Positions 21,212 through 63,658 of a stretch of 64,000 nt of DNA are shown here, piece after piece. The position numbers and the translations under genes are program-made. The stretch lies in NCBI GenBank assembly GCA_964019135.1, contig OZ025256.1, positions 3,741,249 through 3,805,248 of the forward strand, read 5' to 3'. The notes under the pieces were generated by a model. The model searched no databases. It saw only the letters and a list, made by a program, of their open reading frames with translations, and was not told the origin of the DNA. Source of the DNA: Arenicola marina (lineage: Eukaryota > Annelida > Polychaeta > Arenicolidae). How positions within the stretch are numbered: position 1 is the first letter of the stretch; every line of letters starts with the position of its first letter.

Positions 21212-23226
21212 ACGGCAAATTCCTTACCTGGTCCAGGTATGCAGGGACATCATATTGACAGCCCTTTCTTACCTGGTCCACGTATGTAGGGACATCATAT
21301 TGACAACCCTTTCTTACCTTGTCGAAGTATGTAGGGACATCATATTCACAACCCGTTATCACCTGGTTCACGTATGCAGGGACATCACCTTGACAACCCT
21401 TTCTTACCTGGTCCAGGTTTACAGGGACACCATATTGACAACCCTTTCCTACCTGGTCCAGGTATGTAGGGACATTATATTGACAAACCTTTCTTACCCG
21501 GCCGGGGTATGCAGGGACATCATATTGACAGCCCTTTCTTACACGGTCCACGTATGTAGGGACATCATATTGACAAACTTTTCTTACCTGGTCGAGGTAT
21601 GCAGGGACATCATATTGACAGCCCTTTCTTACCTGGCCCAGGTATGTAGGGACATCATATTGACAACCCTTTCTTACACGGTCCACATATGCAGGAACAT
21701 CATATTGACAACCCTTTCTTCCCTGATCCAGGTATGTATTGACATCATATTGACAGCCCTTTCTTACCTGGCCCAGGTATGCAGGGACATCATATTGACA
21801 ACCCTTTCTTACCTGGTCCACTTATGTAGGGAGATCATATTGACAACCCTGTCTTACCTGGCCCAGGTATGCAGGGACATCATATTGACAGCCCTTTCTT
21901 ACCTGGCCCAGGTATGCAGGGACATCATATTGACAACCCTTTCTTACCTGGCCCAGGTATGCAGGGACATCATATTGACAACCCTTTCTTACCTGGTCCA
22001 CGTATGTAGTGACATCATATTGACAGCCCTTTCTTACCTGGCCCAGGTATGCAGGGACATCATATTGACAACCCTTTCTTACCTGGTCCACTTATGTAGG
22101 GAGATCATATTGACAACCCTGTCTTACCTGGCCCAGGTATGCAGGGACATCATATTGACAGCCCTTTCTTACCTGGCCCAGGTATGCAGGGACATCATAT
22201 TGACAACCCTTTCTTACACGGTCCACGTATGTAGGGACATCATATTGACAACTTTTTCTTACCTGGCCGAGGTATGCAGGGACATCTTATTGACAACCCT
22301 TTCTTACCTGGTCCACGTATGTAGGGACATAATATTGACAACCCGTTCTTACCTGGTCCAGATATATAGGGACATAATATTGACAACCCTTTCATACCTT
22401 GTCGAGGTATGCAGGGACATCATATTGACAATATTTTCTTACCTGGTCGAGGTATGCAGGGACATCATATTGAGAACCTTTTCTTACCTGGCCCAGGTAT
22501 GCAGGGACATCATATTGACAACGCTTTCTTACCTGGTCCACTTATGTAGGGACATCATATGGCCAACGCTTTCTTACCTGAACGAGGTATGCAGGGACAT
22601 TATATTGACAACGCTTTTTTACCTGGTCCAAGTATGCAGGGACATCATATTGACAACGCTTTTTTACCTGGTCCAAGTATGCAGGGACATCATATTGACA
22701 ACGCTTTTTTACCTGGTCCAAGTATGCAGGGACATTATATTGACAGCCCTTTATCACCTGGCCGAGGTATGCAGGGACATCTTATTGACAACCCTTTCTT
22801 ACCTGGTCCACGTATGTAGGGACATAATATTGACAACCCGTTCTTACCTGGTCCAGATATATAGGGACATAATATTGACAACCCTTTCATACCTGGTCGA
22901 GGTATGCAGGGACATCATATTGACAATATTTTCTTACCTGGTCGAGGTATGCAGGGACATCATATTGAGAACCTTTTCTTACCTGGCCCAGGTATGCAGG
23001 GACATCATATTGACAACGCTTTCTTACCTGGTCCACTTATGTAGGGACATCATATGGCCAACGTATTCTTACCTGAACGAGGTATGCAGGGACATTATAT
23101 TGACAACGCTTTTTTACCTGGTCCAAGTATGCAGGGACATCATATTGACAACGCTTTTTTACCTAGTCCAAGTATGCAGGGACATCATATTGACAGCCCT
23201 TTCTTACCTGGTCCAGGTACGTAGGG
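21212..23226. repeat. 45-bp minisatellite, about 45 copies
   Basis: Units of exactly 45 bp built on TTCTTACCTGGTCCAGGTAT + GCAGGGACATCATATTGACA + ACCCT. The register is kept for 2 kb without an indel. The 11-unit block 22300-22560 recurs 495 bp later (22795-23055), which shows growth by blocks. Because the period is a multiple of three, both strands have long open frames (720 codons on plus, 205 on minus). Neither has a start context, splice sites or a non-repetitive domain. Confidence 0.95.
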
Positions 23227-23407
23227 ACTTAATATTGATTACCATCACTCCCCCCCCCCCCTCCACCCTCATCCCCTCACCGAACTACCCCTCCCCCCCC
23301 CCTACACACACACACACCATCATTCTCTTTAGCCGTTTATCTACCTCTATTCGATTCCGACAGCAATTTCCATTTCGGGACTTTTTTGCACTCTCTGAAT
23401 ACGACTC

Positions 23408-33400: not shown

Positions 33401-33639
33401 CACGTAGACAAAGGTCACAACCCGTTGACCCACTGTTTATGCGGCACGACCCTTGACGACAGCAGGCCCCTTAGCAACGATCTACCCGTAAATTCAGCCA
33501 TATGGTCACTTGTCTGGAATATTCTTAAACGAACGCATACCATATAAGTTACATCCTCGTAATATTTCCGTCCCTGCCCATGTCGAAGTAATTTTTTATG
33601 GGTTCACAATATTGATATCCAGAGGGCTTATTTATGCAC

Positions 33640-34410
33640 ATTCCGACTGCCACCCATAGATGTAACCTTCAGGATATTGCCTTAGTGGCCACCCATAGAT
33701 GTAACCTCCATGATATTGAGTTAATGGCCTCCCATAGATGTAACCTTCAGGATATTGAGTTAATGGCCTCCCATAGATGTAACCTCCATGATATTGCCTT
33801 AATCGGCTCCCATAAATGTAACCTTCAGGATATTGCCTTAATGGCCACCCATAAATGTAACCTTCAGGATATTGCCTTAGTGGCCACCCATAGATGTAAC
33901 CTCCACGATATTGAGTTAATGGCCTCCCATAAATGTAACCTTCAGGATATTGCCTTAGTGGCCACCCATAGATGTAACCTCCATGATATTGAGTTAATGG
34001 CCTCCCATAGATGTAACCTTCAGGATATTGCCTGAACGGCCGTCCATAGATGTAACCTCCATGATATTGCCTTAATCGGCTCCCATAAATGTAACCTTCA
34101 GGATATTGCCTTAGTGGCCACCCATAGATGTAACCTCCACGATATTGCCTTAATGGGCTCCCATAGATGTAACCTCCATGATATTGAGTTAATAGCCTCC
34201 CATAGATGTAACCTTCAGGATATTGCCTGAACGGCCGTCCATAGATGTAACCTCCATGATATTGCCTTAATGGCCACCCATAGATGTAACCTTTATGATA
34301 TTGCCTGAACGGTCGTCCATAGATGTAATCTCCAGGATATTGCCTGAACGGCCGTCCATAGATGTAACCTCCATGATATAGCCTTAATGGCTTCCCATAG
34401 ATGCCGGCGT
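33640..34410. repeat. 39-bp minisatellite, about 19-20 copies
   Basis: Units of CTCCCATAGATGTAACCTTC + AGGATATTGAGTTAATGGC. The minus strand stays open for 269 codons (13-residue repeat with GGYIYG), the plus strand for 133. The minus frame has no ATG at its start (a TGA directly precedes the first GTG), so I treat this as a minisatellite. Confidence 0.9.
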
Positions 34411-35014
34411 GAGATGGCGACACAAGATAGAACAGCACCACTCACACACACATCAAGGTGAAGGTCACAGTACCAGACAGACAACAGCAGCGGTTCACTA
34501 AGTACATAGAGAGTGCTCCAGCAGCAACCAACAATCAAACAACTACACACATTCATTCTTAACCTAGACGCCAAACATGTTCCTACATGTTACTTACAAA
34601 TGAAGTTAAATCTATATTAACCGTTCTCAGCACGCAGATATCATAACGCACCCATTGACGTCTTATGACAAGTAGCTTATCTGAGAGCGTGAGTCACAAT
34701 TTGAGTCCTTAACGAGTCATTAATGAGTCGTAACTGAATCGGTAAGAAACGAGAGAAGTGAGCTCTTTTTGCTGCAATAGACGGTCCCGTTGAAGCGACT
34801 ATTAACGCACAGTTCTAACGGTTTCTCATGGCTAAATGAGACAAGAAAGTAAAGTGTTAGGCGTAAGAATCACTGTTGATCATTAACATCTCCGGTAACA
34901 TATCGGAGTATTACTTGAGAAGATACTGGGGGCAATATAACCTGTGAAGGTCATATTACGTCAACGTGGAGGATCAAGGTCAGAGTGGACCCATCTACTC
35001 TTAACCTTTATCCC

Positions 35015-48360: not shown

Positions 48361-51300
48361 ATGAAATTGGTATGTTCTGAATGTAAAATAATGATAAATA
48401 TTACTGCTTCTGTGGAGACAGAAATTATCACAATCTCAACAGAAACATTTTATATTCAACCAGGATTTATGCCAAATTATCCGCTGGAAGGAAGGCTTCT
48501 TATCTAGTTTATGTGCAGCTTTGGCATGAAAAATGTACTTGGGTAGTAAGAAAGCAGTTTGATATATTATTAGGCCACTGTTGTGTGCATTAGTAATGAT
48601 GATGATGTTGACAATCAAAAAAGTCTCACGCATGTAAATAATTGATTATGTGGCATGAATAACTATTCTATTATGTGATCATAAATTCCCTAATGAAGTC
48701 TAGATCACTGGAAATCTCATGTAATGTCTGGCTTCGTTTTCAATGGATTACTCTTATAACGAATATCGATATGTAAACCACCACGGTATGGCAATGTTTT
48801 GATTTCAGTATTGCTTATCTAGTCACCCCAATCGGCCATGCCTGGTTTTAAAGTACAAGAGTGCTTCCGTCATGCTGGACTGTGGTCTGGATGTGTCCAC
48901 CCTGCTTCACTTCCTACCATTACCACTGACACAAAGGTGAAGGTCCAGGACTTTATCCTACATGTCATCTGATAACAGCTGATTAGAATTGCTTACTCTG
49001 GGTCCTGATAACTACAATGCATTGCCAGCAATATTTCCAGCAAATAATGTACTGTGATCACCAACATGCCAAATATTTTTAGAAGTTAAAAGAAAATTTT
49101 GATTGCTGAAGTTTATGATACCTATAAGCGTCACTTTTTTTGATACCAAAGATGACATATTTTGTAGCGGTAAATAAATGTATATATTTTTAACTTGTGT
49201 GGATGTTATCATAAAATTATAGGCAAACAAAGATCATGTCATATTGTTGTATATATAATGTTGAACAGTAACAAACTCAAGTTCACACTCAAGTTCATTT
49301 TACGAGAGACAAGACCATATAATTTAACAATATCAAAATAGATAAAGTAACTTATATTTGGCTCTTGCTATTCTCAAAAGTATGAATTATGCAGTTGTAC
49401 GAGGATTTATATGCCTGATATTAGTATCAAAATAACATTGGCAAATGGGGCGCAGATACATGGATGCTAGGTTACAGAAGCGAAATAAGAAGCTGCTTCT
49501 TGAATTTATTTTAGCTTGTTACCTTTTATTTTCTGACAGCGGTCCATTTACCAAGCTCACTGGGTGGTCCCCACGAGAGGTGCCGGCGTCTCTGAAGCTT
49601 GATGAGGTACTCAACCTTCCTCTATGTTGCCTTCACTACATCTTATACGTACTCCTGTGACGAAGGCAGGAAGTGAATAACTCCTGTAAACTTTGACTAT
49701 CTAGTACATATGCACTGGAGCTGATGTATTCCGCTTCTAGGCATCCAGTGGAATTATGTGAAAAGTTAATCATTTTGGTTTTAATTATCGAAAAATCACG
49801 TATAACTATGCTATTTGTAGGAGCTGAAAGAATGCGGAGGAAAAATCTTTGTCGATAGTGAGCCGGAACTTGCTATTCCTGAGGTAAGTGTTTCATTTTT
49901 GATGTTCTCTTTGGGCAAGGCTCTACCATATGAGACCCATTTCGGTTGTTAGTTTCTGCATAGTTCCTTGTAATATATATTTTGGTATCGTACCGTAATT
50001 GGGTTGAATGACGATGTCAATGTTGTTGGTGGAATGACGAGGCCACCTAGAACAGAACCGGGGTCCGTCGGCTTGGCACGCCGGCCCGCAGCTCTTATAC
50101 ACTGAGATACAATAGGTCAGGTGCCGTCTACCTTCATCGTATTCGTGATCAGTATAATGATAATTATCATATGGTGTCACTATGTCTCATACATTTTTCC
50201 TCCAGCATAATCTAACAAATTGTGGGTTTGCTTCTTAAGTTGGCATATGCGTGGAAGCGTATCTATCCAACCCTATTTGACGGTCCCCGGGGGCTGAATT
50301 CTTGACCCAGTTTCATACTTATAATAACCTATGTGTGCACAAACAGGGCCAAAACCCCCAAAATTTAAATATTCCCTTATGCAGTTCGGGATGCTGGACA
50401 TGAGTGAGGTGGACGTGGTTCTCATCAGCAACCCTCACTGTATGCTGGCTCTGCCCTTCCTAACCGAGTACACCAGCTTCAGGGGGACTGTCTACGCCAC
50501 GGAACCCGCCCTACACATCGGAAAGTAAGGCTCCATCAGCTCACGCCATAATCATATAACCATAAGTAAGGCTCCATCAGCTCACGCCAGTAATCATATA
50601 ACCATAAGTAAGGCTCCATCAGCTCACGCCAGTAATCATACAACCATAAGTAAGGCTCCATCAGCTCACGCCAGTAATCATATAACCGCCAAGGTCGGGG
50701 GTGGGGGCGCCGTGGTCGAAAGGTAGCGTTCTCAACTGCTGACCAGCCGGTCGCTGGTTCGAACGCCGAAGGAGTAATATAGGTCTGACGCTAAAACAAG
50801 ACCGAAATAATTTTACTTGACGTTAATATTAGACAGTGTGAAATGTCCGTATTTTGGTGACAAAACAATGCTAAATTATTTAAATATGATGCAAATGTTA
50901 AGCAATCTAAAGCAAGTATACAAACGTAGTACAATTTGAGTGTGGATTGGTCCACTATGACGCATTGCTTCTGCAATAACGTCTTTCCTTGCATACGAGC
51001 CACACAACATCCATTAGGCTCCACTCTTCACCCGACAGCGTATGGGGTCGCCCCCCGGGACATGGCTCCACTCTCCCTTTCTTTTCCCTTTGACGCGATA
51101 AAGCGTCTTGAATATACAACTAACCAATCACACGGCACCCCCAGCAACTCAAATGTATTCTGTTCTGCTCCGCATAATATGTCTGATGCTTTGGTTTTCT
51201 ATATATCAATTAATTAATGAATGCCGTGCAAACTAAAATGCATGCATACTGGCCTTTTTGTAAATGTTTCTCTGTCTGGCAGAATGTTCATGGAAGAGTT

Positions 51301-54300
51301 GGTGTTACTCATAGAAAGAGCCCCGAAACAGAAGCGTTCAGCCAAGTGGAAGGCAGACAATGTGCTCAAGTAAGAAAATGGTTGAGGTGCTTTTTGCAGA
51401 ATCTTGAATGCACTACTACTTATTATAAACTTGTCACGCGTTTTTTCGCCTGTGGGCTATGTCCAATATTGTAATTATCTTTGTACTATTATGGAAATAA
51501 ATCATATATAAAAAAAATATTAAAAAAATCGTCTTCTTGTCACATTCCCGTGTAGTTGGGATATTTTACCTTAAGGTTTCTCCTGTAATATGGTTTTGTA
51601 CGGCGTGCGGCTGTACGCTGATTTGATGGACATAAAATTATCTGCAGATCTGCAACAGTGATTCATTTAATATACACTTAAACCCATGTGCTGTAAGGCC
51701 AACAGTACCTGATAAGAACAAACCCCTAAGCAGATGCGCCAATGCGTATTATATTGCATGTTGTATCTTGTCAATGTATATAAATAAATGATGACATGTA
51801 TTTTGGATTTGTTCGCTATATTTCACAGCTTCTTGCCGTACCCCCTTCGTGATCTGAAGTCCCCTAAGATGTGGCGAAACTGTTATAACATGCACGATGT
51901 TCGAATGTCCTTGTCGAAAGTGCAAAACGTGGGCTTCAACGAGACGAAGGTAAGTGACCATAAACATTAAAGTACAGTACGAGTGGTTGGTGAGTTCGGT
52001 CCAGTTGACTGGTCAGCCACCATGCTGAATGCCAATTCCTATGTTAGTGCTAAATAAATAGACCATGTCGTTCGAAATGGGAGAATGGAAGTTTTCTCTA
52101 CTATCTATTCTAATATTATATATATGTAAATTTACGTTGTTATTTAAAGGTTAATTTTCTCTTATTAAACCCAGAGACTCTGTGGACTTATTCGTTTTAC
52201 TAATGTTAGCCGTTTTCCTCCAATATAATTGTGGAACATTGACGTGTCTGTAATCTTGTTGTTAGTTTATTTTTATCATAATTCATCAAACTTTGTGGAA
52301 TACGATGAGTGACAATCGAGGTAAATCCGTCAAGTTGTGTTTGAGTTTGGACATTTTGTTGTATATTTTAATTATATTTTTTTATATCTCTAAGGATATA
52401 TTCGGAGCTCTAAAAGTGTTCCCCGTCAGCTCTGGATTTTCCATTGGCAGCTGCAACTGGATAATCAAATCTGATTATGAAAAGGTCAGTCGTCATATTA
52501 ACATTGATTACATGTTAATTGTTTTTGTCTGTTTTTTCCATAAACATTATAAACTTAAATAAGTGTACCTAGTGAGGAAGTTTAGGATGTGAGGTCAAGC
52601 ACTATGTCCAGGACAAACCGTTCAAACAGCGCAGCGACCTTTTGTGTTATATATCTTATACCTACGCTTACATATGTAAAGGAATGTAAGCGCATTAATC
52701 TGAGGATATGCCGTTAATTTGGTAATTAGGAGGTGTGAAGCGAGTTTGCGAGGACGCGACATTGCGCAAGGCGAGAACGCGAAAAGACACAAGGCGAGAA
52801 TGCGAAAAGACGCGAAGCGAGAACGCGAAAATTGCGTGTCGCTGGAACGCGAAAAGACACGAAGCGAGAACGCGAAAATGCGTGTCGCTGGAACGCGAAA
52901 AAACACGAAGCGAGAACGCGAAAATGCGTGTCGCTGGAACGCGAAAAGACACGAAGCGAGAACGCGAAAATGCGTGTCGCTGGAACGCGAAAAGACACGA
53001 AGCGAGAACGCGAAAATGCGTGTCGCTGGAACGCGAAAAGACACAAAGCGAGAACGCGAAAAGACATGAAGCGAGAACGCGAAAAGACACGACGCGAGAA
53101 CGCGAAAATGCGTGTCGCTGGAACGCGAAAAGACACGAAGCGAGAACGCAAAAGGACATGAAGCGAGAACGCGAAATATACATGGGAACGGCGGGAACGC
53201 GAGATCGCGTCGGTTGCGCGAAATGCAAAAAGGGAAACGAATTAACGCGATGTCGCGGTATTCCTATTGTTATAGTCATTTAGAAATAAAAACATTCATG
53301 TGTATATAACGCTTTTGAGATAGAAAATGAAAAGTGCTACAAAGAAATAAAGATCTCATTGACGGGATATCTTTATATGAAGTAGAGGGGGCCTCCCTGG
53401 TGTAGTGATTAGCGCACTATACCATTGGTGCTAGCCGGGCCTGGACTCCTAATCTGGGGCATGTTTCATCCACTCATTATTCGTCGCACCGCGAGGTTCT
53501 TTAACCCAGTTAAGCCATAGTGTGCACAAAGCGGAATCATTTCATTTCTGTTAGAATTATGGAAATATGTGAATCGATATTGGACCATTGTCTTGCAGAT
53601 TGCATATGTCAGCGGGTCCTCCACTTTGACGACGCATCCAAAGGTATAAACATTTAACCTTTCATCGCCAAATGATCTCGAAGCTTATTGTGAATGCTCG
53701 CCAAACTAATTTGGGGGGGGGGGCAAACCAATTTTGGGGGATAGAAGAAAACAACTTGACGGTAGTACCCATTCAGTCATGAATATGACTGGGAAAAAAA
53801 TTGCATCCATTGTACGTACGTGAATCACATATTATGTTTAGTGATCGACGTTCTGTATATCCCGCGTGGGCCTTTGGACATAGTCTCAGGCACAGTATTT
53901 CGGCATGTGTTAAAAGTGTGACATAGTCCTTATCTGGGTGCTATTTGCAATCAAAATGCGTATCTGAAACGCAGTCGACGCCGAAAACGCCTTGTTTACC
54001 CAAGATGTTTTTTTCCTGGAGGTATATACGCGCTCTCATGCGTTGACTCCCATGCCATATGATACAACGAATAGAACGACAACAAACCACGTTTCGCCAC
54101 TATCGCTCGTCATTTCATCGTCAGATCACATAATATTTGTCGTGATTTCCAGCCCATGGAGCAATCTCCGCTGAAGAAGTGCGACATTCTGATCATGGCG
54201 GCGCTGACCCAGACACCCACCGCCAACCCGGACGCCATGATAGGAGAGTTCTGCGTCAACACCGGTGAGAGCCTTCGACATCAGGGACAGTGGGGGTGGG

Positions 54301-57220
54301 GGCGGCGACCCGATAGCTCAGAGGGTTGGAGTGCCCTGGCCACCTGATAACCTATCGGCACGTGGATCGATGGTTCGAGCTCCGCTGTGGTCATGTATGT
54401 GGTCGCAGGATAAAGATCCCATGTCCTTCTTCGCAAGCAAAGAGTAGGGGATTACCCCCGGGGACATGGCTCCACTGTCCCTTCCTTTTCCGATCGACGC
54501 GATATGACAAGAATTGGTTTAAGCGTCCTGAATATACAACCCTTCATCCTTCATCGTCTCGGGAGGTTCCTTGGCCCAATTTAGCCTGTATGTGCACAAA
54601 AGTGGCCTAAAACCCCAACATTCCATTCCATTCCTGAATATACAACCAACTAACCAACATCAGGGGCAGGGGGGCACTCCAAGATACTGGCACAGGACTG
54701 GTGGGGGAGAGGGGATTGGGGGGCACGCCAAGATACTGGTGCAGGACAGTTCCGGGACAGGGGTGGGAGCTGGGGGACACGCCAAGATACTGGTGCAGGA
54801 CAGTTCCGAGAGAGGGGTGGGAGCTGGGGGGCAATGACTTTAATCCCATGCTTGCGACTGATATAAGCTAACGGGATAATCGTTATGTTCTAACCTTATT
54901 CGCTGCTTTTTTCTAAGTTTTGTTAATTTATTTACTATTTTAGCATTTATTTACAGCCCAACTGGTTTATGACTGAGCAAAGCGAAAATATGCCGAAAGT
55001 GCTTTTTAAACTGATTTGTTATTTAATCTTCAGCTATGACCTTGAAAAACGGCGGCAACGTGCTCGTGCCGTGCTACCCGTCTGGCGTGACCTATGACCT
55101 GTTTGAGTGTCTTTCCGGTCACCTGGAGAACACGGGCCTGGGGCAGGTGCCTCTCTACTTCATCTCACCGGTAGCTGACGTCAGCTTGGCCTACTCCAAC
55201 ATCTACGCTGAATGGTAAGCCAGCTATATGACACAGCTTTTCCTGTCGTGTCGTTATTTGAAGCAATTAGAAACTGTTTATGGATTAATTAATTAAAGTG
55301 AAAGTCTTGATTAGTGCAAGTGCAAGTCAGACGGCTACTGACGAATCTGTGATGGCACATAACTTTGAACTTTCCATTTGCTCCCATGCTAAAATTGCTG
55401 GGGTTGTCTTTAACATGTGCACTCAACGTTGCTGACCCCTTTGAGTCCATGATGTTTCAGAACAGATAGAACAAAGCTGCCACAATATGTAATATGTTCA
55501 CATAAATTGGCAGGTTATCCACTGGAAAAAAGTCCAAAGTGTACTTACCCGAACCGCCCTTCCCTCACGCTGAACTTGTGAAGAGCAACCGACTTCGACA
55601 CTTTCCTAGTTTACACGGTAAGATTTTACAATGGACGATGATCTGGACTTTCATTTCGGTGCCAAACGCCATAGAAATCACATGGAATGGTGGCGCCATC
55701 TAGTGACAAGCTTGCCTTCTACGCATGGGTGAATGGCTCGGCCAGTAGATCACGGCACTGTACTATGCGGTATACCCATCATAACCTGAAATAGCATGAA
55801 CATACCTCGTTATATTGATATTGATATAAACTGGTTTAGCCTCCTTCTTTCTAATTAACAAGGTTTGTTCTAGTCGTGTTTGCATGTTATTTTTGTACGA
55901 TGGGCACGGTGACTGAACTTACCAATAAACTATCTATATTGATATAGCTAACACATTAGGACAACACCCGGAACAATGTTTCTATCTGGTGAAGGCATCA
56001 GCCTTGCGTACTAAATAAATAGTCTACGGTCTGCACGTGGGTGACTGTGAATGATAGTAGTCGTCCAGTAGAGATCACAATTATGCTGTGCGGAATTCGG
56101 CAATGAAATAGATTGAAGCCAGCATACCCCACTATGGTAATATAACAAATATTGAAACAAATGAAAATTGAATTTCCGGACCCCTATACCCGTAATTCAG
56201 CCTAACGGCACGTGGATCGGTGGTTCGCGCCCCCCTGTGGCCATGTCTGTGTGGTCGTAGGATAAAGATTTCATGTCCGTCTTGGCAAAGAGTAAGGAGT
56301 TACCCCGGGGACATGGCTCTACTCTTCCGTCCTTCTTCCATTGACGTGATATGGCAACAATTGGTTAAAGTGTGCCTAATATACAACCAAACTGTAATTC
56401 AACCGTGTTTATCCCACGTACAGATGGCTTTAACACTGAGCTTCGGACCCCGTGTGTGTGTTTTGTGGGTCACCCGTCTCTTCGGTTCGGGGATATCGTC
56501 CACCTCATCAAGCTCTGGGGAAGCAACAACGCCAACACCATCATCTTCACCGGTGAGTAAGTCACTGACATGGCCTGATAATCTTGTAGAGAATTTTGTT
56601 TGCAATATATTGGTCAGTGTCGGTGTGCGAGAGTCTCACGAGAAGTGCATGAGATTGACCAAAATGTCGGCGCAATTTAGCCCAACAAGTTCTGTGCGCA
56701 ATCTTTGATGTAAATGGGAAGTTAGTCGAAGGTTATTTTACTGATATTGTAGAATTACTTTCGCCATTGTTTGGGCTATAATCCTCTTTATCACCATGCG
56801 TCTAGTCACAATTATAAATAGTGAATTATTGGACCATTCAATGAACTATGGCTCCATATCTCTGTTTTCTGTTGCAATTTCTTTGTTACTTGATTCGATA
56901 TCTTTCTTTCAGAGCCGGATTTTCCCTACTTGGAAGCTTTGGCCCCATATCAACCACTGACGATGAAGGTGGGCTAAACAGCTGTAACAATCAGTACTTG
57001 TGTAAATAAATGATGAATCGATGTTTCTGGATATTCGGTTAGAGAGCCTGGGAACATTTTATTTTACACTTCGTCACTTTGAATCATTTTCAAATGCTAG
57101 CAGACGATTTTTACAGCTCTATTTTTGATTATTTCTCGTAGGAGATGATAAATAACAAGTTGTGTTATATATTAATTCTAGTTATAATGTACCTCACATG
57201 AAATATAATAATATAATACA

Positions 57221-57262
<42 letters not shown>

Positions 57263-60200
57263 TTCGAGTGTGAGATGGGTTTATAGCAGCACCAGTCTCA
57301 GATAGAAAAGGAGACTTGTGCTGAGACAAAGCGATCTCGCTTGAGAAGCCATGTCATAGGCATTTTCTCGCACAAACCTTTGTCAAAATATCACCCTGGG
57401 AGGTGACAATGAACTTTTTTTGAAAATGCCTAGTCACATAGTCCGGGATGGGGTTATATCGGCCCTGATGTCACACACCATGGGACGCAACCAAGTTAGT
57501 GCGAGACCCATGTACCCCATTGGTCACCCGAATTTATTTTCTTAATCAAGTTTTAATGAACCTTAATATGTGCACAAGCGGCCTGCAATACCATAGCCCC
57601 TTACCTTTGTCGCTTGTTTCTCCCAGGTGTCCTACTGTCCCATCGACACCAGCCTGAGTTTCTCGCAGGCCAACAAGTTAATCCGGGAGCTGAAGCCGCT
57701 TCACCTCGTCGTTCCCAACGACTACCTGACTCCGCCTCCCATGTTACGCCGACCCGACCTGGTGGTCGAGTGTGTAAGTGACGTCACAGGGTCGGGGCGC
57801 ACCGATTGGTCCATTGCTCAGGGTTTAAGGTGGCTGGTTATCATGTTGTTGTTATTTTATTTGGTCGTCATTGCTATAAAATATTATTCTATTATCGTAT
57901 CTATTAACGTCATGTTTCTGTTCTTTGGGGTCGTCAGTGTTCTAAATATAGGTTTTACTATAATCTTGGCTGTTCAACTTTGTCTTACTTGTTCGTCCGT
58001 GCTATAAAATATATATTTGACGATGATCTTTGGCCAATAGTGTATCTTCCTGTTACTTGGTTGTCAGGGCTTTAAATATATATTTTATTAGAACCTTGCT
58101 TTGTATTTCCGCTATTTGAACGTCAAAGCTTATAAGATGTTTTTTTTTTTTGGTATGATCTTCGGCAGATAGCTTCATCTTTCTGTTACTTGATTGTCAG
58201 TGCTTTAAATATTTTTCTATAATCATGGCACAACAGCTCCATGTTTCTGTTAGTCGGTCTGTGCTATGATCTTGGCCAATGTTTCCGCCTGTAGGTCATT
58301 TGGCATTTAAAGATAAAAGCGGCTATTCTCGAGCCAAATGCGAATCACCCGTTGTAACGTTGGTTGGTGACATATAATTTTTTTATTGTATAATATACCA
58401 TGGGTACGAGGAAATAAAAAAAAAATTAATTGCATGAAAAAATCAGTATTCATTTCTTTTCAGTGTGCTTTTAATGAGAAAAATGACCAATATTCACAAT
58501 TTTTATATTTCAATAGCGTTACATTGGCATTGGGGGGCATGGTGGAACATCACTCGATAACATGTAATTATTGTCACTGTTGATATTATTGTCAATGTGA
58601 GGCTGTGGTGCAGTCGGTAAACGGTCTGTGTCTCCGTGGTGTCACCAGGAACCAGCTCCAGTGTCCTACAAGAAGGCTGACGTTGTCAACCTGCCGATCA
58701 AGCGACAGTATGAGAAGGTGGACCTTCACCCAGAGGTAGGTAGCTAGTTACCGGGCTGCCTGCCTGTCAGGCTGAGTGCCGTAGAACCACCTGAGTACCG
58801 TAGAACCACCTGAGTACCCTAGAACCGCCTGAGTGCCGTAGAACCGCCAGAGTGCCGTAGAACCGCCAGAGTGCCGTAGAACCGCCAGAGTGCCGTAGAA
58901 CCACCTGAGTACCCTAGTACCGCCAGAGTGCCGTAGAACTACCTGAGTACCCTAGAACCGCCAGAGTGCCGTAGAACTACCTGAGTACCCTAGTACCGCC
59001 AGAGTGCCGTAGAACTACCTGAGTACCCTAGAACCGCCAGAGTGCCGTAGAACTACCTGAGTACCCTAGTACCGCCAGAGTGCCGTAGAACTACCTGAGT
59101 ACCCTAGAACCGCCAGAGTGCCGTAGAACTACCTGAGTACCCTAGTACCGCCAGAGTGCCGTAGAACTACCTGAGTACCCTAGAACCGCCAGAGTGCCGT
59201 AGAACTACCTGAGTACCCTAGTACCGCCAGAGTGCCGTAGAACTACCTGAGTACCCTAGAACCGCCAGAGTGCCGTAGAACTACCTGAGTACCCTAGTAC
59301 CGCCAGAGTGCCGTAGAACTACCTGAGTACCCTAGTACCGCCAGAGTGCCGTAGAACTACCTGAGTACCCTAGTACCGCCAGAGTGCCGTAGAACTACCT
59401 GAGTACCCTAGAACCGCCAGAGTGCCGTAGAACTACCTGAGTACCCTAGTACCGCCAGAGTGCCGTAGAACTACCTGAGTACCCTAGTACCGCCAGAGTG
59501 CTGTAGAACCGCCAGTGCGTGCTAAAGCGTTTATATGCACATAGCGAACGGCAAGGATTCCTGCACATGCACACACGCATCGGCGGTTCTAAGGTAGTCT
59601 AGGTCTGACGGTTTGAAGGTAATCACGTTGATGATGAGTATCGGAGTTTGAGCGAGTGGCCGGCCCGGTAGCTCAGTGGGTTAGAGCGCTCGCATTGAGT
59701 GCTCTGGTCACCTACCTGAGAGCCTAACGGCGCGTGGATCGATGGTTCGAGCCCCGCTGTGGCCATGTCTGCGTGGTCGCAGGATAAAGATCCCATCTCC
59801 TTCCTCGTAAAGAGTAGGGGGTTACCCCCGGGGACATGGCTCCACTCTCCCTTCCTTCTCCCATTGACGCGATATGACCAAAAGTGGTTAAAGCGTCCTG
59901 AATAACCAACCAACCAACCGAAATTCCTATCACATAGATACAATGTCTGCGGACGTATATCGCATTAAAATCAGTAGGTATTAAATTTTGCCGGCAAATG
60001 ATAGAGTGGATTGGTCAGATTTGGCGTATTTAGGCCCATGGCTCATAGACTACGGTGGGATAGGAACTCTGGTACGATGACTTGTCTGATGGAGCTCTTC
60101 GCTCACTAAAAGACCATTCGAGTAGACCCTTGTTCCCTTGGGATAGGAGCTGTGCGATAATGGGTCTTAAGACATGACACTTTACATGTTTATCTTGTTT

Positions 60201-63200
60201 AGATAAACTAATGCGATTATTCTTCATATGTTAGATAACTACAGATTTTGATTTTTGGAATCGGGTGATATGCATTCTCCGTAGATCTTGATGAAGTCCG
60301 AGAGTGGTATTATGGTAAGTTATATGATTATCCTGAGACTTTTGAGTCCTGTTGACACCTCTTAGCTTTGCTGTTGCACGTCCATTCATTCCATTGACCT
60401 GTCATAGTTACTTCACTTGGAATAGTTCCTTTGTAATATTTACCACGGTGTGTTTCTGTTTTGTGTAGCTTGCCGCCAACCTGATGCCGTCCGAAGTGAA
60501 ACCCGGCATTGCGGTTGCCATGGTGACAGGAAATCTCTCCACGCGGGACAACAAATACACATTACAGGTAACGTCTACATGGAAGAAGCTGAACAGTTCA
60601 TGGCGATTTGTATCATTTGGATGTCCATTTATTTCTAATATATATACATGTGCATATATGCAAAGTGGATATTATGCAAATGCGACATCTGCCGGTCACT
60701 TACTAATTTAGGCGCTTTGTTACTCAAGCGCTCACTACGGAACTATTGTAATCTCCTCCCGTTGCAATGGAATCCATGCAAGGGAAAACACTAGTCTCAG
60801 CACTAAAGGTCTTTTAAGGAACATATATTGCGACTTTTCCCCATTTGCGAGGTGTTTCCTTAACGTATCGTCGCCCATCGGTGCATAATGGCTCAAAACA
60901 CCAATCCTTACATCAAATGCGGCACTTGCACCCACGCTGAAGCACTAATCACTGCGTAATCTTTGTTGTAGCTGCATTAGGCTGGCGTAGCATGGGCTTG
61001 GCGCTCTGAATAAATGATGTTGTTCTTAACGCCCCTCTCAGCCCATTCGTACCGACGAGGGCGCCCCCAAGCGGCGAGCGGTGGAGGCCTCTCAGCCGAA
61101 GCGGCCGGTCTACGTGTGGGGAACTCTGGACGTGTACGAGTTCGTGAAGAGTCTAAAAGAGGTGAGCACAGACAGCGCGGATACACCAAGCAGAACCCTG
61201 GGTAGCCAACTAATTAAACCCCAGGGTCTTGGGGGAGTCTAAAAGAGGTGAGCGCAGACAGCGCGGATACACCAAGCAGAACCCTGGGTAGCCAACTAAT
61301 TAAACCCCAGGGTCTTGGGGGAGTCTAAAAGAGGTGAGCACAGACAGCGCGGATACACCAAGCAGGACCATAGGTAGCGAACTAATTAAACCCCAGGGTC
61401 TTGGGGGAGTCTAAAAGAGGTGAGCGCAGACAGCGCGGATACACCAAGCAGAACCCTGGGTAGCGAACTAATTAAACCCCAGGGTCTTGGGGGAGTCTAA
61501 AAGAGGTGAGCACAGACAGCGCGGATACACCAAGCAGGACCCTGGGTAGCGAACTAATTAAACCCCAGGGTCTTGGGGGAGTCTAAAAGAGGTGAACACA
61601 GACAGCGCGGATACACCAAGCAGAACCCTGGGTAGCCAACTAATTAAACCCCAGGGTCTTGATGGAGTCTAAAAGAGGTGAGCACAGAGAGCGCGGATAC
61701 ACCAAGCAGAACCCTGGGTAGCGAACTAATTAAACCCCTGGGTCTTGGGGGAGTCTAAAAGAGGTGAGCACAGACAGCGCGGATACACCAAGCAGAACCC
61801 TGGGTAGCCAACTAATTAAACCCCAGGGCCTTGGGGGAGTCTAAAAGAGGTGAGCACAGACAGCGCGGATACACCAAGCAGAACCCTGGGTAGCCAACTA
61901 ATTAAACCCCAGGGTTTTGGGGGAGTCTAAAAGAGGTGAGCACAGACAGCGCAGATACACCAAGCAGGACCCTGGGTAGCGAACTAATTAAACCCCGGGG
62001 TCTTGGGGGAGTCTAAAAGAGGTGAGCACAGACAGCGCAGATACACCAAGCAGGACCCTGGGTAGCGAACTAATTATACCCCAGGGTCTTGGGGGCGTCT
62101 AAAAGAGGTGAGCACAGACAGCGCGGATACACCCAGCAGAACCCTGGGTAGCGAACTAATTAAACCCTAGGGTCTTGGGGGAGTCTAAAAGAGGTGAGCA
62201 CAGACAACGCGGATACACCCAGCAGAACCCTGGGTAGCGAACTAATTAAACCCCAGGGTCTTGGGGGAGTCTAAAAGAGGTGAGCACAGACAGCGCAGAT
62301 ACACCAAGCAGGACCCTGGGTAGCGAACTAATTATACCCCAGGGTCTTGGGGGCGTCTAAAAGAGGTGAGCACAGACAGCGCGGATACACCCAGCAGAAC
62401 CCTGGGTAGCGAACTAATTAAACCCTAGGGTCTTGGGGGAGTCTAAAAGAGGTGAGCACAGACAGCGCGGATACACCCAGCAGAACCCTGGGTAGCGAAC
62501 TAATTAAACCCCAGGGTCTTGGGGAAGTCTAAAAGAGGTGAGCACAGACAGCGCGGATACACCAAGCAGAACCCTGGGTAGCGAACTAATTAAACCCCAG
62601 GGTCTTGGGGAAGTCTAAAAGAGGTGAGCACAGACAGCGCGGATACACCAAGCAGAACCCTGGGTAGCGAACTAATTAAACCCCAGGGTCTTGGGGAAGT
62701 CTAAAAGAGGTGAGCACAGACAGCGCGGATACACCAAGCAGAACCCTGGGTAGCCAACTAATTAAACCCCAGGGTCTTGGGGGAGTCTAAAAGAGGTGAG
62801 CACAGACAGCGCGGATACACCCAGCAGAACCCTGGGTAGCGAACTAATTAAACCCCAGGGTCTTGGGGAAGTCTAAAAGAGGTGAGCACAGACAGCGCGG
62901 ATACACCAAGCAGAACCCTGGGTAGCGAACTAATTAAACCCCAGGGTCTTGGGGAAGTCTAAAAGAGGTGAGCACAGACAGCGCGGATACACCAAGCAGA
63001 ACCCTGGGTAGCGAACTAATTAAACCCCAGGGTCTTGGGGAAGTCTAAAAGAGGTGAGCACAGACAGCGCGGATACACCAAGCAGAACCCTGGGTAGCCA
63101 ACTGATTATACCCCCGGGTCCTGGGTTCGAATCCGGGCCCGGGTACCTAGTCGCAAGTTCTAATTAAAAAATAACTTCGTGTTGTACATATATATGAACA

Positions 63201-63658
63201 TGAAGCTTCAATTGAATGCTACTAAGCCGTTTCATTCAATTACATGCGTGAGTCAATTGTCATGGCCGACATGTACTGAAAGGATACCCTGCTAACAGTT
63301 AACCGTCATAACGTCTTAGTGCTATCAACAAATTTTGTTACACATACATATAAGTAATTTTGTGCTTGATCAATATTCCGTTGTGTCAGCTTTTGCAAAT
63401 TGCAATGCTTTCCTCTCGCATGGCTCACAAGGCTTAGTTTCTACCTCGACCATCAAGGTGGCGAGACGGCGTGACATGCCAACTCGTCCTACTTAAAACC
63501 CAAATCCAATTCGCCTTTGAATTAGGCTCTACTATCATTTAGCAAATGATGGTCTTCGTTATTCTCCAACGAATGTTGTATTTCTCGGTGTTTTTTTGTA
63601 GCAAAACATCACGGACGTGAAGGTTGAGGACAACCCCGGAGGTCATATCGTGCATTTG
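48361..63658 (+). CDS. INTS9: Integrator complex subunit 9, 19 coding exons, 3' end outside the window
   Basis: Exons: 48361-48369, 48809-48936, 49540-49606, 49821-49883, 50385-50524, 51283-51369, 51829-51949, 52395-52484, 53599-53643, 54153-54264, 55034-55214, 55514-55617, 56424-56552, 56913-56968, 57627-57773, 58649-58735, 60469-60567, 61042-61161, 63602-63658. All GT-AG; phases agree over 614 codons (human 658). Start ATG 48361: the three-codon first exon MKL joins [11 protein letters not shown] as in human MKL-YCLSGHP. Metallo-beta-lactamase/beta-CASP fold: [18 protein letters not shown] (residues 103-113, where active relatives have HxHxDH), [66 protein letters not shown]. The missing zinc ligands fit INTS9 as the inactive partner of INTS11 in nuclear snRNA and nascent-RNA cleavage. 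Only the final C-terminal, INTS11-binding part is absent. Confidence 0.97.
50525..50692 (+). repeat. 42-bp repeat carrying the intron 5 donor of INTS9, 4 copies
   Basis: The unit starts exactly at the 5' splice site: GTAAGGCTCCATCAGCTCAC + GCCAGTAATCATATAACCATAA. Potential donors AA|GTAAGG occur at 50525 (used), 50566, 50608 and 50650. Confidence 0.9.
50700..50785 (+). mobile_element. tRNA-like SINE head
   Basis: GCGCCGTGGTCGAAAGGTAG (A-box region), GACCAGCCGGTCGCTGGTTC + GAACGCC (B box). In INTS9 intron 5. Confidence 0.5.
51041..51131 (+). mobile_element. tRNA-SINE 3' fragment
   Basis: GGGGTCGCCCCCCGGGACAT to TTGAATATACAACTAACC, the 3' third of the main SINE family. In INTS9 intron 5. Confidence 0.7.
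52735..53200. repeat. 46-bp (2 x 23) CpG-rich minisatellite in INTS9 intron 8
   Basis: About ten units of TGCGTGTCGCTGGAACGCGA + AAAGACACGAAGCGAGAACGCGAAAA, made of two related 23-bp halves around GAACGCGAAAA. Both strands have open frames of 100-190 codons (Arg/Lys/Glu-rich on plus), with no independent support as genes. The CpG density contrasts with the surrounding AT-rich intron. Confidence 0.9.
53387..53553 (+). mobile_element. second tRNA-SINE family
   Basis: Begins CCTCCCTGGTGTAGTGATTA + GCGCAC (A box); a GGCCTGGACTCC word stands where the B box would be; the body has CGTCGCACCGCGAGGTTCTT and GTGTGCACAAAGCGGAATC. 3' pieces of the same family (TTGGCCCAATTTAGCCTGTA, TGTGCACAAAAGTGGCC) lie at 54545-54605 and about 50300-50375. 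Confidence 0.6.
54304..54540 (+). mobile_element. tRNA-SINE, full length
   Basis: CCCGATAGCTCAGAGGGTTG (A box), GATGGTTCGAGCTCCGCTGT (B box), body and AATATACAACC tail; followed directly by a 3' piece of the second SINE family, then AATATACAACCAACTAACCA again. In INTS9 intron 10. Confidence 0.9.
54660..54835. repeat. about 55-bp repeat, 3 copies
   Basis: GGGGGCACGCCAAGATACTG + GTGCAGGACAGTTCC, three to four degenerate units in INTS9 intron 10 after the SINE tail. Confidence 0.8.
55691..55710 (-). promoter_or_regulatory. CTCF-like motif in INTS9 intron 12
   Basis: Minus strand CTTGTCACTAGATGGCGCCA; the core CACTAGATGGCGCC fits CCASYAGRKGGCRS with one or two mismatches. A single copy outside any array. 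Confidence 0.4.
56201..56391 (+). mobile_element. tRNA-SINE, 5'-truncated
   Basis: From CCTAACGGCACGTGGATCGG through GGTTCGCGCCCC to CTAATATACAACC. In INTS9 intron 12, ending about 30 bp before exon 13, so the polypyrimidine region of that acceptor follows directly on the SINE tail. Confidence 0.85.
57222..57260. repeat. (TA)n microsatellite
   Basis: About 19 TA dinucleotides in INTS9 intron 14, next to the left end of the dispersed repeat at 57262. Confidence 0.95.
57262..57535 (+). mobile_element. dispersed repeat, copy 2 (see 29640)
   Basis: Shares the ordered words listed for 29640-29895, for example GAGAAGCCATGTCA, GTCAAAATATCACCCT and GGGAGGTGACAATGAA. Inserted beside a (TA)n run, which would suit a TA-targeting element. 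In INTS9 intron 14. Confidence 0.6.
58765..59515. repeat. 38-bp minisatellite beginning about 30 bp after the exon 16 donor of INTS9
   Basis: About 20 units of GAGTACCCTAGTACCGCCAG + AGTGCCGTAGAACTACCT. CTAGTACC and CTAGAACC units alternate through much of the array, giving a 76-bp higher-order period. Confidence 0.95.
59658..59920 (+). mobile_element. tRNA-SINE, full length, best-preserved copy
   Basis: GGCCGGCCCGGTAGCTCAGT + GGGTTAGAGCGCT (A box), GATGGTTCGAGCCCCGCTGT (B box), body, and tail AATAACCAACCAACCAACC. 263 bp. In INTS9 intron 16. The head is that of a tRNA with a GTAGCTCAGTGGGTTAGAGC D-arm. Confidence 0.95.
61151..63145 (+). repeat. 86-bp minisatellite spanning the exon 18 / intron 18 junction of INTS9, about 23 copies
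   Basis: The unit starts inside the exon: GTCTAAAAGAG|GTGAGCACAG, then CGCGGATACACCAAGCAG, an inverted pair ACCCTGGG ... CCCCAGGGT, and CTTGGGGGA. Period 86 bp from the exon copy at 61151 (next 61237, 61323) to about 63105, about 23 units at an estimated 95% or more identity. The last unit continues into CCCCCGGGTCCTGGGTTCGA + ATCCGGG, a tRNA B box and T-arm, so part of the unit derives from a tRNA-like sequence. Confidence 0.95.
63146..63600. other. rest of INTS9 intron 18
   Basis: AT-rich intron sequence with no recognised element; ends with a T run and TTTTGTAG acceptor at 63601. Confidence 0.6.

Follow-up and report, generated by a model that had tools for sequence, protein, structure and literature searches.

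A 5' splice site of the INTS9 gene in the annelid Arenicola marina is repeated about 23-fold in an 86-bp tandem array that begins inside an exon and continues into the following intron. The array lies in a window of 64,000 nucleotides (assembly GCA_964019135.1, contig OZ025256.1, positions 3,741,249 to 3,805,248 of the forward strand), whose own numbering is used throughout. We consider it probable that this array is a minisatellite of the mirage type, as exon-anchored, boundary-spanning arrays are called in amphioxus, that it is largely neutral, and that splicing proceeds from the first donor.

Tandem Repeats Finder (TRF) reported 23.0 copies of an 86-bp period on the forward strand at 61149-63125, with 96% match, 0% indels, and a score of 3611. 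The word GTCTAAAAGAGGTGA occurs 23 times on this strand, at a spacing of exactly 86 bp from 61151 to 63043; when up to three mismatches were allowed, the only further forward-strand site in the window was at 1037. Chance is not an issue as the source of the array. Its 5' edge is located 11-13 bases within the INTS9 exon, so that the repeats span the exon-intron boundary, and each unit contains the last 11-13 exon bases, the donor, the start of the intron, and a part derived from a short interspersed element (SINE). The exon end GTCTAAAAGAG is followed by GTGA in all 23 units (61151 to 63043). The donor hexamer is GTGAGC in 22 of the 23 and GTGAAC in unit 6; hence 21 of the 22 downstream copies, referred to here as decoys, have the same six bases as the first donor, and all 22 retain GT. 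These data agree with the initial annotation, which had described an 86-bp repeat multiplying a 5' splice site about 23-fold, starting with the last 11 exon bases and GTGAGC and creating some 22 near-perfect decoy donors.

The identity of the gene follows from an upstream exon (55033-55215), which strongly matches INTS9 in PDB (E = 8.8e-26). A tblastn search with a human query sequence gave colinear INTS9 exon matches on the forward strand from 48809 to 63658, and we infer that the gene continues past the latter position. The exon that ends in the array (61042-61161) produced no INTS9 match when searched alone. Joined to the next exon (63602-63658), it yielded a translation beginning PIRTDEG and an ungapped match of 34 residues across the junction with the C-terminal domain of human INTS9 (5v8w, E = 0.0011). 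Together with the colinear matches, this result bears out the earlier assignment of the exon to INTS9.

The same match speaks for the first donor. Inclusion of one added unit would extend the reading frame by 26 codons, up to a TAA at 61240-61242 that lies upstream of donor 2, as had been predicted from the sequence; the conserved INTS9 protein requires the first donor, in line with the earlier proposal that this donor is strongly preferred. At two other genes with donor arrays, described below, protein matches were also continuous across the first-donor junction: residues 1-87 of an AASS-like gene aligned with 91 positions of Pfam AlaDh_PNT_N, and residues 1-108 of an ALDH gene aligned with 108 positions of the top-scoring NCBIfam model, the latter being a partial match below the model cut-off. 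This continuity implies use of the first donor in the INTS9, AASS-like, and ALDH genes.

Since 21 of the 22 decoys share its six bases, the first donor would be chosen via its position and not its sequence. Exon definition is the likely reason; like first-come recognition, it is an established idea that fits such a choice. Under exon definition, the first donor and the upstream acceptor would close an exon of 120 nt; use of a decoy would need at least 206 nt. The decoys would then remain intronic and largely neutral, and equal tolerance elsewhere would allow arrays to build up at other genes of this annelid.

Column variation was compared across five arrays, and a selected role for decoy donors was rejected, as no consistent signal emerged. 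Ranked for low variation among all rotations of the unit, the 9-base donor block occupied places 10/86, 18/41, 17/39, 28/28, and 6/34 (the first unit was included in these ranks, and only the retrieved parts of the 39-bp ALDH array were used). Of the unit lengths, 39 and 42 bp are divisible by 3; 86, 41, 28, 34, 71, 98, 62, 37, and 82 bp are not. From the sequence, the decoys look neutral.

Other donor arrays were found in the 867-Mb assembly, where the matches listed for the donor word on contig C1 include four array clusters. In the AASS-like gene, an exon ending in ...NMALLDAILEK is followed by GTGAGT and by an intron that consists almost wholly of 41-bp repeats, of which 138 could be matched before the following exon begins. 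The ALDH gene carries a 39-bp donor array and, two exons further on, a 28-bp array. A Cys-rich exon is associated with a 34-bp array (anchoring judged by eye only), and the fourth cluster lacks a visible anchor. As to the window itself, arrays with a period of at least 10 cover 25% of its length, and therefore some degree of overlap between arrays and splice sites is expected. Given donor arrays at unrelated genes of the same genome, INTS9 is apparently not special, and its array looks like a tolerated habit of this genome and not like a special INTS9 switch.

Two further candidates for anchored mirages were rejected. The array at C1:1093700-1095300, composed mostly of CAGATAAGT, fills the retrieved stretch, in which no anchor was seen; for a 45-bp array at 21223-23238 of the window, no adjoining exon was seen by eye. 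Many minus-strand units of the latter (45 bp x 45) contain CCAGGTAAG-like donor words, and CAGGTAAG-like words occur on that strand. Elsewhere in the window, at 33632-34441, an array of 39 bp x 19 (33649-34403) accompanies a minus-strand stop-free frame of 269 codons.

The frequency of arrayed splice sites was assessed in 60 exons sampled independently of arrays. The sample consisted of the first 20 stop-free rows each of the kinesin and myosin listings and, for TCP-1, of the first 21 such rows less one, the long single-block match C5:36718893-36719855; the three source listings comprised 133, 77, and 49 rows, and several sampled exons share a gene. The 3' ends of six exons (6/60, 95% interval 4-21%) lay within arrays of at least three donor copies, two in kinesin, two in myosin, and two in TCP-1 genes. 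The retrieved stretches contained four (L094), three (L099), five (L115), seven (L122), four (L131), and nine (L144) donor copies. By eye, at least three of the 60 exons (L142, L145, L148) had no visible donor in the retrieved stretch. In the myosin locus L122 (G000:C7:32813879-32814199), the units combine both kinds of splice signal, in that a donor and a short exon end occur together with ACAG and a C-rich tract.

For the acceptors of these 60 exons, TRF detected no array of at least three copies across the boundary; L191 has a 1.9-copy array that is devoid of exon bases. Inspection by eye gave 2/60 acceptors hit. In the kinesin locus L164 (G000:C17:1217625-1217945), a duplication seen by eye crosses the acceptor and includes exon bases; two copies are clear and a third is decayed, and the nearer decoy reads GCAAGG versus ACAGGG at the real site. 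A 23-bp array at L151 ends about 10 bp before the acceptor and was excluded from the count. Fisher P values for donors versus acceptors were 0.027 (6 vs 0), 0.11 (6 vs 1), and 0.27 (6 vs 2). A significant asymmetry was thus not retained: the TRF value of 0.027 is lost once one or two by-eye acceptors are counted, which makes the asymmetry suggestive, not proven. Introns also hold more repeats in their first part, where each position from +20 onward is covered in 7-12 of the 60 sequences, than in their last part (2-6 of 60).

Motif counts across the genome were likewise suggestive of donor-targeted amplification. Triplets of AGGTRAGT numbered 20,273 versus 6,519 for the reversed word, longer-spacing triplets 18,366 versus 6,940, and single sites 85,319 versus 59,587. 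We set these counts aside as proof because sites and not loci were counted, the forward and reverse counts lie far apart, and the totals may be dominated by a few large arrays. Among the matches listed, array clusters judged by eye amounted to 4 per 1.75 Mb for the donor word and 6 per 13.75 Mb for the control (P = 0.02), one of the six control clusters being also one of the four donor-word clusters. It is conceivable, though we think it rather doubtful, that 5' splice sites are amplified genome-wide, with about one donor in ten arrayed, acceptors largely spared, and a strict first-donor-wins rule surviving to about 138 near-identical copies. If the donor/acceptor asymmetry holds, it would be a fossil record of the first-donor rule, decoys being harmless downstream of a donor and harmful upstream of an acceptor.

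The composition of the INTS9 unit points to its origin. The segment at 63117-63152 is part of a dispersed tRNA-derived SINE present in at least 39 other places of the genome; 20 of these 39 were compared, and by eye the usual SINE head precedes the segment in 18. The distal edge of the array retains SINE letters that are mostly absent from the inner units. Mean divergence among units 1-22 is 4.0%, versus 8.9% between unit 23 and units 1-22, and of the seven columns in which unit 23 departs from the units 1-22 consensus, five fall within the last 25. Units 11-13 differ from units 14-16 by 0, 0, and 1 bases, and units 16-18 are identical to units 20-22 (0, 0, and 0 differences); such near-identical blocks of three and four units indicate later multi-unit duplication. 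A single tandem duplication, reaching from the exon end to the decayed SINE, would have seeded the array, which could then have grown through slippage or unequal exchange. The sequence suggests, as the simplest history, an ordinary tandem duplication into a decayed SINE followed by expansion. No tRNA gene or Rfam RNA was found in the window at the gathering threshold. A SINE-like copy with its own 19-bp tandem repeat is situated just past the second ALDH donor array (L086, G000:C1:613779-613936), and SINE sequence thus adjoins both this array and that of INTS9.

Several points weigh against a largely neutral array spliced from its first donor. We infer first-donor use from the conservation of the protein. 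With equal duplicated donors, classical reports have favored the intron-proximal site, a rule by which the choice made here would be predicted wrongly; our literature search yielded none of these reports. The 17-base exon-end/donor block of the INTS9 array has 1/17 variable columns versus 18/69 elsewhere (P = 0.059), which may leave weak room for constraint on the decoys. Finally, the copy number is that of the assembly, and the assembler could have inflated a short duplication. The structured variants among units, the multi-unit duplications, and the occurrence of several independent loci with differing units make such an artefact the least credible of the explanations that we weighed.

The initial annotation had raised the possibility that INTS9 dosage is tuned by the array, with conceivable feedback through RNA processing: some transcripts would use decoys, meet the TAA, and be destroyed by nonsense-mediated decay (NMD). 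Every decoy would indeed give the same early stop, further downstream junctions would make NMD plausible, and INTS9 is a member of an RNA-processing complex. This proposal found no support, however, as similar arrays occur at unrelated genes (AASS-like, ALDH, kinesin, myosin, and TCP-1) and decoys lack consistent conservation across arrays; moreover, the 39-bp ALDH unit is open and a multiple of 3, so that its decoys would not give NMD. We regard control of dosage as very improbable. No more can be said for a role of the repeated donors in recruiting U1 small nuclear ribonucleoprotein without splicing, either as a telescripting shield or as a boost to the first donor. The retention of GT in every INTS9 decoy, of GTGAGC in all but one, and of GT in 134/138 AASS-like units would fit this idea, but donor columns of the five arrays are not consistently less variable than their neighbors, and in the 28-bp ALDH array the donor is the most variable block (28/28); the odds are strongly against it. 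A still slighter chance attaches to the Rogers model of intron gain, in which an AGGT proto-splice site is tandemly duplicated and the array itself would be the new intron. Here too the exon end and AG/GT are duplicated, as in the human internal tandem repeats considered in the accessible text of PMC2812944, which also deals with human exon-intron boundaries that carry variable tandem repeats, and the units of the myosin array L122 combine a pyrimidine tract and ACAG with a donor. In INTS9, however, the array lies inside the intron and no new exon or intron boundary is apparent: the acceptor at 63602 and the next exon are 476 bp past the end of the array at 63125 and are not unit copies, so the acceptor does not come from the duplicated segment.

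We class the INTS9 array as a mirage because it has the features of mirages that could be checked: it spans a boundary, its unit is of minisatellite size and contains splice signals, and it is homogeneous inside, as under concerted evolution, with a diverged boundary unit. In amphioxus, such arrays are described, in the accessible text of the reports, at Adh3, the globin genes BflGb6 and BflGb9, PGBD5, and TnC (PMC3087553, PMC3902484); their units measure tens to about 160 bp, many contain splice signals, and donors or acceptors are affected. The Adh3 data and reverse transcription PCR of globins suggest that mirages do not interfere with regular splicing (PMC3087553). The present host is an annelid and not a cephalochordate, copy numbers reach 23 (INTS9) and 138 (AASS-like) versus 6 and 3 in two BflGb6 haplotypes, multi-copy donor arrays occur at 6/60 exon 3' ends, and the INTS9 unit includes SINE-derived sequence. 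Minisatellites of the earthworm metallothionein gene are likewise intronic, annelid, and of higher-order structure; the accessible text places them within intron 1 and makes no mention of their spanning a splice site (PMC12783039). The Amynthas genome paper gives general repeat figures only (PMC12130307). Within open-licence literature, boundary-spanning minisatellites called mirages were found in amphioxus papers only, which is a weak negative. Novelty may lie in the phylum, in the copy number, and in how frequent mirages appear to be here. A DNA search of the genome with two INTS9 units returned 14 matches, all at this locus (very common words were skipped). Introner elements also link repeats with splice sites; they differ in that no dispersed splice-site-carrying family was seen for the INTS9 unit.

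Features of the INTS9 locus, in window coordinates
Feature	Position	Strand	Evidence
INTS9 gene as traced	48809..63658	+	tblastn with human query; exon 55033-55215, E 8.8e-26
Earlier INTS9 exon, ending ...HIGK at second donor array	50385..50524	+	tblastn; boundaries by eye
Second donor array of INTS9, 42 bp x 4, with AA/GTAAGG (2 exon bases) in every unit	50523..50687	+	TRF
INTS9 exon ending in array (...FVKSLKE)	61042..61161	+	5v8w match when joined to next exon
Tandem array, 86 bp x 23	61149..63125	+	TRF, unit list
First 5' splice site GTGAGC, probable authentic donor	61162..61167	+	INTS9 match without gap after joining to 63602
22 decoy exon-end/donor copies, units 2-23 (unit 6, GTGAAC)	61237..63059	+	unit list
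In-frame TAA for donor 2 or any later donor	61240..61242	+	translation
B-box part of tRNA-derived SINE, at and just past distal edge of array	63117..63152	+	genome comparison
Next INTS9 exon, acceptor outside array	63602..63658	+	5v8w match of joined exons

The mitochondrial contig encodes, on one strand, ND4L-ND4-tRNA-Val-16S-ND1-ND3-ND2-COX1-COX2-COX3-ND6-CYTB-ATP6-gap-ND5 (COX3 and ND2 were identified by eye, ND6 is below the Pfam cut-off, and 12S and ATP8 were unmatched). The annelid signature, in the accessible text of PMC2639372, places nad6/cob after cox3, atp6 between cob and nad5, and nad3 between nad1 and nad2, with nad5 and nad4L/nad4 interchanged; in Clitellata, Maldanidae, and Terebellidae, the main non-coding region separates atp6 from nad5. 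The order agrees with that signature in all these points, including the gap between ATP6 and ND5; it identifies the host as an annelid and led to the rejection of amphioxus as the source. Kinesin matches on contigs C390, C504, and C536 contain in-frame TAG/TAA and no TGA; these contigs may be contaminants from an organism, a ciliate for instance, in which TAA/TAG encode amino acids.

Studies of how the spliceosome selects among equally strong 5' splice sites usually rely on a few engineered duplicates. Among the genes examined here, about ten conserved ones carry a single donor in three to about 138 consecutive copies, and the conserved protein requires the first. If first-donor use is true, exon definition and first-come selection during transcription could readily be tested on these arrays. 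Mirages would then extend from amphioxus to a second phylum, and donor arrays could be common and lengthen introns.
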